Source: Acinetobacter pittii
Lineage (GTDB): Bacteria; Pseudomonadota; Gammaproteobacteria; Pseudomonadales; Moraxellaceae
Assembly (NCBI RefSeq): GCF_034067285.1
Contig: NZ_CP139286.1
Span: 744,001 to 808,000 of the forward strand
Direction: 5' to 3'
DNA length: 64,000 nt
The stretch's first letter is position 1; each line of letters begins with the position of its first letter. The notes under the pieces were generated by a model. The model was given only the letters and a program-made list of their open reading frames with translations, searched no databases and was not told the DNA's origin. Positions 58,016 to 63,895 of this stretch are shown in pieces. The position numbers and the translations under genes are program-made.

Positions 58016-61000
58016 TTAACCTACAGTTAAATCTTGCAAGCGGTATACATCCATTGGCAATTTCACAGCAAAGGCTTGGCAAACAGCTTCTGCACCATTG
58101 ATTGTCGTTGTGTAATACACTTTGCCTTGTAGGGCAGCACGACGGATCATTGCAGAGTCATATTGAGCCTGTTTACCTTCAGTGGTATTGACAATAAGGT
58201 GTATTTCACCATTTTTCAAGCGGTCAACAATATGTGGACGACCTTCAGTAACTTTATTTACAGATTCACATTCTAAACCTGCTTCTTTAAGCACTTGATA
58301 AGTACCACCTGTTGCAACAAGCTTGAAGCCATACGCAACTAATTTCTTAGCGATATCAGCGATGTATTTCTTGTCAGATTCACGTACTGATAAGAAAGCA
58401 TGTTTTACTTCGCCTTCAGTTGGTAAGCCTGGTAAGCGTTCATTTGAGCCTAAAACAGCTTTATAGAATGCTTCACCAAATGTTTTACCTACACCCATCA
58501 CTTCACCTGTAGATTTCATCTCAGGTCCAAGCATTGGATCAACGCCTTGGAATTTTGCGAATGGGAAAACTGCTTCTTTCACAGCAAAGTGAGTTGGAAT
58601 GATTTCTTTAGTAAATCCTTGAGATTCAAGAGATTGACCTGCCATACAACGCGCAGCTACTTTAGCTAAAGAATCACCAATACACTTCGATACGAATGGA
58701 ACTGTACGTGAAGCACGTGGGTTAACTTCTAGAACGTAAATATCGTCACCTTTTACAGCGAACTGAACGTTCATCAAGCCAACAACACCAAGTTCTTTTG
58801 CCATTGCAATCGTTTGACGACGCATTTCATCCTGAATTTCTTTTGATAAAGAATAAGGAGGAATTGAACATGCAGAATCACCTGAGTGAATACCCGCTTG
58901 TTCGATATGCTGCATGATGCCGCCGATCACAACGTCTTTACCGTCAGATACACAGTCAACATCAACTTCAGTTGCATCATCTAAGAAACGGTCAAGAAGA
59001 ACAGGGGCTTCATTAGATGCCTGAACTGCTTCACGAAGGTAACGTTTAAGTTCTTCTTCGTTATATACGATTTCCATTGCACGACCACCTAATACATAAG
59101 ATGGGCGAACAACAAGCGGATAACCTACTTTTGCAGCTTCAGAGATACCTTCTTCAGCAGATTTTACAATGCTGTTATTTGGTTGACGAAGCTGTAAACG
59201 TTGGATCATTTGCTGGAAGCGTTCACGGTCTTCAGCACGGTCAATCGCATCTGGTGATGTACCGATAATTGGGGTACCTGCTTCTTCTAAAGCACGTGCC
59301 AATTTAAGTGGAGTTTGACCACCATACTGTACGATTACGCCTTTAGGCTTCTCGGTACGTACGATCTCAAGTACATCTTCAAGTGTTACAGGCTCGAAGT
59401 ATAGACGGTCAGATGTGTCATAGTCGGTAGAAACAGTTTCAGGGTTACAGTTCACCATGATTGTTTCATAACCGTCTTCACGCATCGCTAATGCAGCGTG
59501 TACACAGCAGTAGTCAAATTCGATACCTTGACCAATACGGTTTGGACCACCACCAATCACCATGATTTTGTCACGGTTTGATGGATTTGCTTCACATTCT
59601 TCATCGTAAGTTGAATACATGTATGCAGTACCAGACTCAAACTCTGCTGCACATGTATCAACACGTTTGTAAACTGGATAAACACCCAAGTTCCAACGTT
59701 GTTTACGGAATTGCTTTTGTGAAATGCCCATGAGGTGAGCAATACGAAGGTCAGATAAACCTTTACGCTTGAACGAACGGATGTTGTCAGCGTTTAAGTC
59801 ACCAAAACCTAAAGTTTTCACTTGAGCTTCAGTTTTAACGATGTCTTGAATCTGGATGAGGAACCAACGATCAATTTTAGTTGCTTCAAAAACTTCATCT
59901 AAAGAGAAACCATGGCGGAATGCATCCGCTACGTACCAGATACGCTCAGGACCCGGAACTTTAAGCTCTTTTAAAATGGTTTCTTTGGCATTTGTTGCAC
60001 CGGCTTCGATTTTTTCATCAAAACCGCTTACACCAACTTCAAGACCACGTAATGCTTTTTGTACAGATTCTTGGAAGTTACGGCCAATTGCCATGACTTC
60101 ACCAACAGATTTCATCTGAGTGGTAAGAACTGGTTCTGCTTGTGGGAATTTCTCGAAGTTAAAACGAGGAATCTTCGTTACAACATAGTCAATCGACGGT
60201 TCGAAGCTTGCAGGAGTCACGCCACCAGTGATGTCATTTTTCAATTCATCAAGGGTATAACCAACAGCAAGTTTTGCTGCGATTTTAGCAATTGGGAAAC
60301 CTGTTGCTTTAGAAGCAAGCGCAGATGAACGAGATACACGAGGGTTCATCTCGATCACAACCATACGTCCGTCTTTCGGGTTAATACCGAACTGAACGTT
60401 AGAGCCACCTGTCTCAACACCAATTTCACGAAGAACTGCAACTGAAGCATTACGCATCAATTGATATTCTTTGTCAGTTAATGTTTGAGCTGGTGCTACA
60501 GTAATAGAGTCACCAGTGTGTACGCCCATTGGGTCGAAGTTTTCGATCGCACATACGATAATACAGTTGTCGTTTTTGTCACGAACAACTTCCATTTCAT
60601 ATTCTTTCCAGCCAATTAATGATTCATCAATCAATAACTGGTGAGTAGGAGAGAGGTCGAAACCACGTTCACAGATCTCAAGGAATTCTTCACGGTTATA
60701 TGCAATACCGCCGCCCGAACCACCCATTGTGAATGATGGACGGATAATTACTGGGAAACCAAAGCGTGATTGGATTTCTAAAGCTTCTTCCATTGTTTCA
60801 GCAATGGCAGCTTTTGGACATTCCAAGCCAATTTTACGCATAGCGATATCGAAGAGTTTACGATCTTCGGCTTTCTCAATTGCGTCTTTAGTTGCACCAA
60901 TTAATTCAACATTATATTTTTCAAGAACGCCGTGCTCATCAAGTGCAAGAGCACAGTTCAATGCAGTTTGGCCACCCATAGTTGGCAATACTGCATCTGG

Positions 61001-61246
61001 ACGTTCTTTTTCAATGATTTGAGCAACTGTTTGCCAAGTAATCGGCTCAATATACGTTGCATCAGCCATTGATGGGTCTGTCATAATGGTTGCTGGGTTA
61101 GAGTTAACCAAAATAACACGGTAACCTTCTTCACGAAGAGCTTTACACGCTTGAGCACCTGAGTAGTCAAACTCACATGCCTGACCAATCACAATCGGGC
61201 CAGCACCAATAATTAAGATGCTTTTAATATCCGTACGTTTAGGCAT
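58016..61246 (-). CDS. carB: Carbamoyl phosphate synthase large subunit
   Basis: CarB makes carbamoyl phosphate for pyrimidine and arginine synthesis from bicarbonate, ATP and the ammonia supplied by CarA. The 1076-residue protein has two ATP-grasp halves: [15 protein letters not shown] in the first and [16 protein letters not shown] in the second. Each has its VNPRASRT or MNPRVSRSS metal site. A C-terminal MGS-like regulatory domain ([25 protein letters not shown]) is where UMP and ornithine act in the family. ACGGAG precedes the ATG. The gap to carA is 14 bases, a translational unit. Confidence 0.98.
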
Positions 61247-61260
61247 TATTCGCTCCGTAA

Positions 61261-62400
61261 TTACTGTTTAGATGCTTCAATAAGTTCGATGAAGTGATCG
61301 AACAATGGGGCACAATCATGTGGACCTGGGCTTGCTTCAGGGTGACCTTGGAAGCTGAAAGCTGGTTTGTCTGTACGGTGAATACCTTGTAAGGTGCCAT
61401 CGAACAATGATTTATGCGTTGCTTTTAAGTTAGCCGGTAAAGTTTCTGCATCTACAGCGAAACCATGGTTCTGTGAAGTAATCATCACTGTACCATCTTC
61501 AAGATTTTGTACAGGGTGGTTAGCACCGTGGTGACCATGGTTCATTTTTACAGTTTTTGCACCAGAAGCGAGTGCCAAGATTTGGTGGCCTAAGCAAATA
61601 CCAAATACAGGTAATGTTGTGGTTTCAACAATAGTTTTTACAGCTTCGATTGCGTAATCACAAGCAGCTGGATCGCCTGGGCCGTTTGAAAGGAATACGC
61701 CATCTGGATTAAGTGCCAAAACTTTCTCAGCCGGAGTTTCAGCAGGTACAACAGTGAGTTTACAACCGCGGTCTGCAAGCATACGCAAGATGTTGGTTTT
61801 GACACCGTAATCGTATGCAACCACGTGATATTTTAATTCGGGTTGAGTAAAGCCTTTACCTAATACCCACGAACCTTCAGACCACTCAAAGCCTGTTGGA
61901 TCACAGCATTCTTTTGCAAGATCTAAACCATTTAAACCACCAAAAGCACGAGCTTTGGCAATTGCTTCTTCTTCAGTAATATTTTCGCCAGCAAGGATGC
62001 AACCATTTTGTGCACCTTTGTCACGTAAAATACGCGTTAATTTACGTGTATCAATATCAGCAATCGCAACAACATTGTGCGCTTGTAAATATTCACTTAA
62101 AGACTGTTCAGCACGGAAGTTGCTGTGTAGTAGTGGAAGGTCACGAATAATTAAACCATTCGCCCATACTTTATGGATACGACCAGATTCAACGTCTTCC
62201 GCGTTGCAACCAGTGTTACCAATATGAGGGTAAGTTAATGTCACAATTTGTTGTGCATAACTTGGGTCAGTCAAAATTTCTTGATAGCCTGTCATGGCTG
62301 TGTTAAAAACGACTTCTCCAGTCGTACTTCCCGTTGCGCCGATTGACGTTCCTTTAAAGATCGTTCCATCTGCGAGGGCTAAAATGGCGGGGGTGCTCAA
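61261..62400 (-). CDS. carA: Carbamoyl phosphate synthase small subunit (glutaminase)
   Basis: CarA releases ammonia from glutamine for CarB. I place the start at TTG 62398-62400, with AGGAG seven bases before it. This gives [21 protein letters not shown], matching the family N-terminus. A longer reading frame from 62445 adds a tail that the family lacks and would lie inside the leader. The 379-residue protein has [20 protein letters not shown], and the glutamine amidotransferase motif [15 protein letters not shown] with catalytic Cys, then [11 protein letters not shown] with the His/Glu. The start codon overlaps the stop of a predicted leader peptide, and hairpins in that leader suggest attenuation. 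Confidence 0.95.
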
Positions 62401-62474
62401 ACCAAAGCTCCTGAATTTCGGCTGTAAAAAAGCGAGTAGACCCAAAAAAGATAGGCGATGTTGTGATAAAACAT
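62397..62474 (-). CDS. Predicted carA leader peptide (25 residues)
   Basis: On the minus strand, an ATG at 62472-62474 is preceded by the strong ribosome site AGGGAGGG (4-5 bases away) and opens a 25-codon frame. It begins [16 protein letters not shown] and ends SRNSGALV, rich in Tyr, Phe, Leu and Trp. Its TGA stop (62397-62399) overlaps the carA TTG start. The frame runs through the descending arms of two nested hairpins and their T-runs, so a translating ribosome would disrupt them. This layout resembles leader peptides of pyrimidine operons such as enterobacterial pyrBI, controlled by UTP-sensitive pausing. That function is inference. Confidence 0.6.
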
Positions 62475-62500
62475 GGCCCTCCCTATCGGTCTGCTCGCTT
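62430..62500 (-). promoter_or_regulatory. Nested attenuator-like hairpins in the carA leader
   Basis: On the minus-strand RNA an outer stem of 13 bp with one G-U (62488-62500 with 62430-62442) ends in a T-run and encloses an inner stem (62482-62487 with 62450-62455). The inner stem is itself followed by six T (62444-62449 on the plus strand are A). A third small stem (62470-62474 with 62458-62462) holds the leader ATG. Two possible termination points precede carA. Confidence 0.6.
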
Positions 62501-62515
62501 GTAACTTAACAGCGC

Positions 62516-62544
62516 ATTATACGCATGGAACCTTAAAAAGTCTA
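62516..62544 (-). promoter_or_regulatory. Sigma-70 promoter of carAB
   Basis: On the minus strand TAGACT (62539-62544), a 17-base spacer and a perfect TATAAT (62516-62521). Transcription should start near 62509, just ahead of the leader hairpins. Confidence 0.7.
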
Positions 62545-62712: not shown

Positions 62713-63300
62713 ATGAGTAATAATCAAGTTTCAAAAGATGTGAGTGAAAAAGCTCAAGCTGTTGTTGATTCAGCAAAAGCCGATGTGAGTGAGGTGAAAG
62801 AAACCGTAGCTGCTACTACGACTAAAGCTAAAAGAGCAGTCACTGCTAAAACTGCACAAGTAAAAGAAAGTGTTGCTGAGAAAACCGAGCAGATTAAAGA
62901 AGTTGCTATAGAAGCGAAAACTCAGGTAAAAGAGGCTGTCGCTGAAACTCAAGAACAGGTCAAAGAAGTCATAAGTGAGGCTCAAGAAAAAATTGAAGCT
63001 GAAACTCATGAGTTAAACAAAAATATTCAGAATCAATTTATCCAAATTAAACAAGATATTTTGCAACGACTAGATGTGATTAAAGCTCAGTTTAGTACTT
63101 CACAAGAAGGATTGTCTGAACTTAAAAATGCTTTGAAAGCAGAAATTAATGCACTTATTGAAGATTTGACTAAAGTCAGTAAAGAGCTTAAAGGTGATAT
63201 TAGCCAGATTTCTTTAAAGCACAAAGATTCTTTAAGTGAAAGCATTAAACGTACTAAAAATAATGCAGTCGAAGCTTGGAATAAAGCGCGGGATAATTAA
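62713..63300 (+). CDS. LEA-like/apolipoprotein-like helical repeat protein
   Basis: The 195-residue protein is almost entirely charged amphipathic helix with no Cys and few aromatic residues. Residues 1-100 repeat an 11-residue rhythm such as VKESVAEKTEQIKEVAIEAK, VKEAVAETQEQ and VKEVISEAQEK, typical of LEA group 3 and hydrophilic desiccation proteins. Residues 105-180 form a more coiled-coil-like segment. There is no signal peptide. Relatives can stabilise proteins or membranes during drying; whether this one does is inference. GAGGAAA lies seven bases before the ATG. It is divergent from carA and convergent with the DOMON-like gene, sharing the terminator at 63324-63354. Confidence 0.75.
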   Translation: MSNNQVSKDVSEKAQAVVDSAKADVSEVKETVAATTTKAKRAVTAKTAQVKESVAEKTEQIKEVAIEAKTQVKEAVAETQEQVKEVISEAQEKIEAETHELNKNIQNQFIQIKQDILQRLDVIKAQFSTSQEGLSELKNALKAEINALIEDLTKVSKELKGDISQISLKHKDSLSESIKRTKNNAVEAWNKARDN

Positions 63301-63323
63301 TAGTTCCAGTTTTTCTAAGCTAT

Positions 63324-63354
63324 AAAAAAGCGAGAATTAATTTCTCGCTTTTTT
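63324..63354. terminator. Bidirectional terminator after the LEA-like gene
   Basis: A 13-bp perfect stem (63324-63336 with 63342-63354), GCGAGAA core, 5-nt loop, with six A before and six T after. It can end the LEA-like gene and the convergent DOMON-like gene. Confidence 0.9.
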
Positions 63355-63358
63355 ACTT

Positions 63359-63895
63359 TTAAAACTGATGTAACCAGTCACGCTTATTATGGAAATCTGC
63401 ACTTTTTCCACTATGCTGCATTGCATAGTATTGAATACCTTCTTTGGTTTTTAAAACTGCAGTTAAACCTAAATAAAGGTTTGCCCATTTCAAGCGATGC
63501 TGTTGCATAAATTGTCCCAAATCAAGACTAACATTTAAGCCATAATGAGTACGCTTGAGATGGTTCAGTTCAATATCGTAAGCAGCAAGGGGAGGCATAC
63601 TTTCTGGATAGCGATATTCTTCAAACTGATAAGACTGCCATGCTTGAGAAGGGGAAAGGTTAATTTCCCGATAATAATCTTCATCATGCACGCCAACAAA
63701 AATTTCGAAACAAGTTTCTTCCCACAAAAAATCCTGACGAGGATGAGCCGCGACTTCTTGGGGCCAGATAATGAGTTGATTTGGATCACGAATCCAAAAA
63801 CCGACATTTAAGGTGTGCGGTGCCTGCTGTTCAATTGCGCCAACAACAGAAACAGCATGAAAACGATCAAAAGCTGAAAGTTCGTAACTTGCCAT
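63359..63895 (-). CDS. DOMON-like domain protein
   Basis: The 178-residue protein has the pattern of small DOMON-like proteins found beside cell-wall or housekeeping genes: FWIRDPNQLIIWPQ near residue 35, DFLWEETCFEIFVGVHDEDYYREINLSPSQAWQSYQFEEYR in the middle (in parts FEIFVG, YREINLSPS, WQSYQFEEY), and LYLGLTAVLKTKEGIQYYAMQHSG near the end. DOMON folds bind heme or sugars in other proteins, but no heme ligand can be named here. Function is unknown. It lies 16 bases after another gene on the same strand, probably in an operon. Confidence 0.78.
   Translation of the reverse strand: MASYELSAFDRFHAVSVVGAIEQQAPHTLNVGFWIRDPNQLIIWPQEVAAHPRQDFLWEETCFEIFVGVHDEDYYREINLSPSQAWQSYQFEEYRYPESMPPLAAYDIELNHLKRTHYGLNVSLDLGQFMQQHRLKWANLYLGLTAVLKTKEGIQYYAMQHSGKSADFHNKRDWLHQF

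Follow-up and report, generated by a model that had tools for sequence, protein, structure and literature searches.

A conserved hairpin upstream of carAB in Acinetobacter, a likely transcription attenuator of the Pseudomonas kind

The leader between the promoter and carA in Acinetobacter pittii contains a nested hairpin with two T-runs, and we consider it very likely that this element is a transcription attenuator of carAB. We read it as the Pseudomonas kind of carAB attenuator in enlarged form. By analogy, the attenuator is probably pyrimidine-responsive; that a ribosome relieves the termination is a plausible but slightly less than evenly supported proposal. The complete reading, in which a pyrimidine-responsive carAB attenuator is opened by a ribosome seated in the hairpin while peptide and frame are immaterial, we judge to be evenly balanced between right and wrong. 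carAB serves both pyrimidine and arginine synthesis. The comparison with relatives separates what is kept (stems, T-runs, and the SD-like tract) from what is not kept (peptide, frame, and start codon), and it raises the question of whether a leader peptide is needed at all for pyrimidine attenuation in these bacteria. The window is the whole stretch of 64,000 nucleotides that was analysed, and the features are given in its numbering in Table 1.

Table 1 Features of the carAB leader region and the adjoining genes in the window
Feature	Position	Strand	Basis
carA promoter TAGACT-17-TATAAT	62516..62544	-	10/12 consensus matches; conserved in genus
Outer stem, 5' arm AAGCGAGcAGACC (AAGCGAG-C-AGACC)	62488..62500	-	Fold, covariation
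SD-like tract GGGAGGG inside hairpin	62477..62483	-	SD-like match in 79/87 distinct leaders
Inner stem-loop, leader ATG inside	62447..62484	-	Minimum-energy fold
T-run 1 TTTTTT, 5' of outer 3' arm, proposed pause site	62444..62449	-	Pausing inferred
Outer stem, 3' arm GGTCTaCTCGCTT (GGTCT-A-CTCGCTT)	62430..62442	-	Fold, covariation
T-run 2 TTTTTT, terminator U-tract	62426..62431	-	T6 in 82/82 extracted leaders (the extraction pattern itself demanded at least 5 T)
25-codon leader frame, not conserved	62397..62474	-	ORF; comparison with relatives
carA ribosome site AGGAG	62408..62412	-	Sequence
carA, carbamoyl-phosphate synthase small subunit, TTG start	61261..62400	-	TIGR01368, 475.9 bits
carB, large subunit	58016..61246	-	NF003671, 1771.7 bits

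Locus: The open frame on the 5' side of the promoter (62713-63300) is divergent from carA. Hence, the hairpin can terminate carA transcription only, as no upstream transcript needs a terminator, and the possibility that it is the terminator of an upstream gene was ruled out. We infer a carA transcription start near 62510. Promoter-grade matches occur at chance level within the window (6 seen vs 5.0 expected), yet a -35/-10 pair of the form TRGACW-17-TAYARt with a 17-nt spacer is present in all 82 extracted Acinetobacter leaders. A second, terminator-like inverted repeat lies at 63313-63365, between the convergent frames 62713-63300 (+) and 63359-63895 (-). The repeat carries the same AGCGAG...CTCGCT letters together with T-runs, and its Rfam matches are at chance level only.

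The 87-nt leader has a predicted folding energy of -31.0 kcal/mol, and the z-score is -6.0 against 200 dinucleotide-shuffled versions (mean -15.1, sd 2.65), all of which folded less stably. The inner stem (62484-62447) overlaps T-run 1. A terminator scan of the window, which considered loops of 3-8 nt only, did not have this hairpin in its output. The earlier note had described two stems, each with a T-run, between a good promoter and carA, and had read them as an attenuator of carA. Sequence and fold (z -6.0) confirm the stems. The promoter also stands, as its 10/12 matches would be at chance level alone but are kept throughout the extracted leaders. The attenuator is supported by the divergent neighbor and by the conservation, the covariation, and the core in common with the carA leader of Pseudomonas, which are described below.

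From 101 Acinetobacter loci, we obtained 87 distinct 140-nt leaders upstream of carA. Extraction and folding of the hairpin succeeded for 82 of them and failed for L054, L058, L140, L144, and L145. T-run 1 has at least six T in 80/82 extracted leaders. The core stem and T6 are conserved among the Acinetobacter leaders, and the loop is variable. For the alignment and the covariance model, 41 rows were picked for variety, comprising 38 of the 87 distinct Acinetobacter leaders plus L086, L092, and L099; L058 and L140, which had failed extraction, were added to the alignment by hand. Across these 41 rows, 98.7% of the outer-stem cells are paired, compared with 33-57% in slid controls. Two-sided changes occur at 3/11 outer-stem pairs, a value equaled by 1/500 shuffles; each of them comes from one sequence, two of the three from L058, and a slide by -2 likewise gives three. 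The covariation of the outer stem is therefore modest.

The covariance model matches 170/175 Acinetobacter genomes, some of which supplied model rows. In this genome, it scores 78.8 bits at carA, and the next best site reaches 29.2. Among the unmatched genomes, G031 and G232 yielded no full-length carA, and the leaders of G049, G141, and G191 (L054, L144, and L145, respectively) are decayed. The latter three are Acinetobacter genomes of 2.4-2.6 Mb in which most of the carA leader hairpin is lost.

To follow the hairpin beyond the genus, the 200 nt before carA were scanned for a hairpin with a T-run, and regions shorter than 150 nt as well as identical regions were dropped. It was present in 87/92 distinct Acinetobacter regions, 21/42 regions of other Moraxellaceae, 26/32 of others of the order, 16/16 of named Pseudomonas, 13/16 of a set labelled Halomonas/Marinobacter that includes further genera, and 1/19 of the Vibrio/Aeromonas/Alteromonas/Shewanella type. 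The same 200-nt scan gave 0/7 in Enterobacterales. Shuffled regions gave 1, 1, 0, 0, 0, 0, and 0 over the seven sets; on the reverse strand, there were 11/32 in the others of the order, 6/16 in Pseudomonas, and none in the remaining sets. Ten of the 80 named loci stayed ungrouped (L181, L197, L201, L204, L208, L210, L213, L217, L231, and L242). Of the Moraxella- and Psychrobacter-type loci missed by the scan, some carry the core farther upstream, with a large loop. In leaders of this type, an ATG sits in the large loop, a few nt above the outer-stem base (GCGAGNNNNCATGA-like) (L090, L091, L094, L097, L105, L115, L117, L119, L123, L125, and L223).

Acinetobacter has the core AAGCGRG...CYCGCTT with a T-run before carA in common with Pseudomonas, with Halomonas, and with a large part of the order. 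Of 17 loci belonging to other groups or genera, the Acinetobacter model matched 14 at E <=1 and five at E <0.01, namely L184 (Alkanindiges), L221 and L216 (Pseudomonas, E ~0.002-0.003), and L223 and L224 (Psychrobacter). The match to L203 had an E of only 0.43, and L207 (Marinobacter), L174, and L200 gave no match among the 17 loci tried. The proposed homology with the Pseudomonas leader is hence based on position and shared core letters and not on a strong model score. We take the stop signal to be old and shared with Pseudomonas.

For Pseudomonas, excerpts of PMC4997734 describe this type of control. According to Kwon et al. 1994 as cited there, P. aeruginosa carAB has a single promoter and a leader stem-loop, its pyrimidine response is lost on removal of the stem-loop, and a leader peptide is reported. 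In P. syringae, a short RNA ends at the hairpin, expression is up without the hairpin, and uracil lowers the expression of the full carAB fusion; a start codon was not found in the leader, arginine and uracil together had little effect, and qRT-PCR was unchanged (excerpts of PMC4997734). As far as these excerpts describe it, the attenuator of P. aeruginosa, P. stutzeri, and P. syringae P32 has the same order of single promoter, hairpin, and carA as Acinetobacter. The two genera also share the core with its T-run, and the TTG start of carA is common to the window and the Pseudomonas loci examined. They differ in hairpin size, which is ~34-36 nt (tight) in Pseudomonas and 64-71 nt in Acinetobacter examples, and in the nested second hairpin with its own T-run and SD-like tract of Acinetobacter. 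Among the open-licence papers searched, none was found to describe an Acinetobacter carA attenuator. The whole words carA and carAB are absent from the main texts of the Acinetobacter RNA papers PMC11472050 and PMC12802169, and carA/carAB are absent from the TSS-EMOTE main text (PMC5094136).

A hairpin that ends a constant fraction of transcripts, without any sensing, would also keep its core stem and T6 but not its loop, and many relatives outside the Moraxellaceae have the plain tight hairpin only. Such a constant brake is quite improbable, as the pyrimidine response in Pseudomonas reportedly depends on the hairpin (excerpts of PMC4997734) and a plain terminator needs neither a conserved SD-like tract nor T-run 1.

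PyrR control finds no support, as none of the eight PF00156 (phosphoribosyltransferase) matches of the genome is PyrR (seven were typed, and purF was assigned by eye). For a PyrR binding RNA, Rfam gave nothing at the end of the window except five sub-threshold matches to unrelated families, which we take as chance. By eye, a nested leader like that of carA was not seen in the 260 nt upstream of pyrB, pyrE, and upp in this genome; the upstream regions of pyrB and upp have plain hairpins resembling the ends of the preceding genes. It is very doubtful that an RNA-binding protein or a small molecule, and not a ribosome, sets the hairpin open or shut. The CsrA kind is a GGA-binding protein, and a binder of this kind would suit a leader with a conserved GGA-containing purine tract and no conserved start codon. 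The start-less P. syringae leader that is lowered by uracil (excerpts of PMC4997734) would also fit; against this stand the absence of PyrR among the PF00156 matches and of any Rfam family at gathering score in L001.

The E. coli pyrBI attenuator is a terminator in the leader of a pyrimidine operon, with T-runs and a frame crossing the terminator. The window is alike in its T-runs and its terminator-crossing frame. In a strict mechanism of this type, the 25-codon frame would be translated through the terminator, pacing a polymerase slowed by low UTP, and would melt the stems. The window has the full anatomy for this, with an SD, an ATG, a frame over both T-runs, and a stop on the carA start, where the TGA (62399-62397) overlaps the TTG (62400-62398, minus strand). 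Excerpts of PMC4997734 report a leader peptide in P. aeruginosa, which also favors it. Unlike in E. coli, the Acinetobacter frame is not kept in close relatives, and SD and start lie within the terminator hairpin itself.

A start codon (24 ATG, 9 GTG) 3-4 nt beyond a 5-nt SD match is found in 33/87 distinct Acinetobacter leaders, and six further leaders have a TTG 2 or 6 nt after the SD match. A stop follows by codon 5 in 11 of the 33. The other 22 (22/87 overall) extend past T-run 2, which speaks for the pyrBI type, but they do so in three different frames: nine have their stop on the carA start, 12 have it at six further positions, and L018 continues in the carA frame. In the species nearest to the window (L002, L004, L072, and L074), codons 4 and 11 of this frame are TAG in a gap-free alignment, and the stems are retained despite these stops. 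Among the six full-length frames of the complex, the residue is altered at 3/4 variable codons. The CarA tree comprised 53 Acinetobacter rows with full carA (of the 101 loci) and three outgroup rows; by a quick method, long and short frames change at least six times among its start-bearing rows, and start and no start at least three times. The window CarA shares 97% identity with its A. calcoaceticus counterpart (L166), and both group together on the tree. The conserved arm and T-run are stop-free in all frames, so an open frame is cheap.

An ATG or GTG within the hairpin is more frequent than in shuffled hairpins, which again favors the pyrBI type: 47/74 vs 19.3 in Acinetobacter, 18/26 vs 8.6 in others of the order, 11/11 vs 7.1 in Pseudomonas, 9/12 vs 3.7 in the Halomonas/Marinobacter type, and, as a slight excess, 9/15 vs 7.3 in other Moraxellaceae, with kinship ignored in all of these counts and the excess limited by the fact that the ATG frequently belongs to stem letters. 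Taken with the lost frames, the strict pyrBI type is rather unlikely. Judged from the aligned leaders, the peptide does not appear to be what selection keeps, and the 25-codon frame is best read as a local variant. In the window genome, the small peptide is probably not the sensor, though a peptide-coupled mechanism may still operate in the window's own species.

Sensing of Tyr or Phe through the leader peptide was already disfavored, and we consider it extremely improbable. The frame in the window has 3 Phe and 4 Tyr among its 25 codons. These codons arise where one of the three frames passes over the T-runs and the letters of the stem. Relatives have that frame closed at codon 4 or reading differently, with no conserved run of regulatory codons. 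Of the proposals in the earlier note, the supply of Tyr or Phe is therefore rejected, and a translated leader peptide as a working part is not supported as a conserved mechanism, given a start in 33/87 leaders and frames that differ between clades. The frame ending on the carA start is present in the window and is not kept in relatives (TAG at codons 4 and 11). The likeness to pyrBI keeps the T-run before the terminator end (80/82) and loses the terminator-crossing frame (22/87). The comparison with relatives, which the earlier note had suggested, found stems and T-runs kept and the leader frame lost. Its "strong" ribosome site was overstated: the SD-like tract is long, but the spacing is only 3 nt, and the fold has both the tract and the ATG in stems.

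SD-like tract: GGGAGG (62483-62478) precedes the leader ATG by only 3 nt, a spacing below the usual optimum, and both are paired in the predicted free RNA. The median anti-SD pairing is -12.1 kcal/mol, compared with -5.6 for base-shuffled loops, of which 0.3% reach the median; like the other shuffle comparisons, this one leaves kinship uncorrected. The tract doubles as a stem arm, with at least 5/6 bases paired in 76/79 leaders; thus, pairing could account for part of its conservation. Its pairs comprise 205 G-U, 125 A-U, and 123 G-C, although A pairs better with U, and Alkanindiges-type leaders retain AAGGAG though the opposite arm is without a long T-run. Both observations hint at a constraint beyond pairing, and neither is proof. 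Eight leaders are without the tract (L046, L054, L057, L058, L133, L140, L144, and L145), all of them absent from the CarA tree. The outer stem is retained in L046, L057, and L133 among these, which counts against a ribosome.

We propose that the polymerase would start near the inferred position and that the leader would fold into the outer stem and T6 terminator ~80 nt downstream, where transcription would halt unless the fold is blocked. Plentiful pyrimidines would lead to termination and scarce pyrimidines to read-through. Slowing at a T-run alone favors termination, which is the wrong direction for an operon needed at low pyrimidine; hence, something must block the stem, and the ribosome is an economical candidate. 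When UTP is short, the polymerase would slow at T-run 1 with the outer 3' arm still unmade, and this pause would let a ribosome occupy the SD-like tract and hold the stem open.

When the bases under an initiating ribosome were blocked, the fold changed from -31.0 to -6.1 kcal/mol, and only a 7-pair base of the outer stem remained. In the start-less L051, a 26-nt block left -5.7. A ribosome at codon 10 abolished the outer stem, which also favors the pyrBI type. Placing the ribosome at codon 3 or codon 6, or covering 16 nt at the SD with a 30S, left a fold of -16.5 to -16.8. The codon 3 position corresponds to the 11/33 start-bearing leaders that stop by codon 5, and there the outer stem still formed (-16.8 for the leader of the window, -15.5 for L002), which counts against the proposal. 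Hence, initiation could open the hairpin, while a ribosome parked where L002 stops (codon 4) would open it only in part (-15.5). The lack of a start codon at the usual place in most leaders and the short spacing between SD and start also count against a ribosome. The P. syringae results weigh against the complete reading as well, with qRT-PCR unchanged by arginine plus uracil and no start codon seen in the leader (excerpts of PMC4997734). A variant in which docking of a ribosome or small subunit on the SD-like tract, without any translation, would prevent termination at low UTP is distinctly unlikely; if true, it would tie attenuation to ribosome loading and not to a leader peptide.

Polynucleobacter has a carA motif, SRC-12-1, that is described in excerpts of PMC8632094 as an imperfect hairpin beside the carA ribosome site with a proposed translational role. 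This beta-proteobacterial element is a structured leader before carA as here and is set apart by that published description. Rfam RF01676 (P31) is called over the carA leader, but on the strand opposite to carA, in the two Pseudomonas loci tested (L203:1420-1501 and L216:1423-1502), and it had no match in the Acinetobacter locus (L001) or the Alkanindiges locus tested. In these two Pseudomonas loci, P31 may be annotated antisense.

In Alkanindiges-type loci (L184 and L086-L089), a GTG ~90 nt before carA follows the SD-like AAGGAG, and its frame is continuous with CarA; it would add a 29-residue N-terminal extension across the terminator. Genomes of g45, e.g., G136, G144, and G150, have a CarA match of E ~1e-98 compared with ~1e-165 to 1e-178 elsewhere in the genus code, possibly due to an insertion splitting the match. 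L204, labelled as a Klebsiella pneumoniae MAG, has the same carA leader as G066, which belongs to the window's order, and is probably a mislabelled bin.
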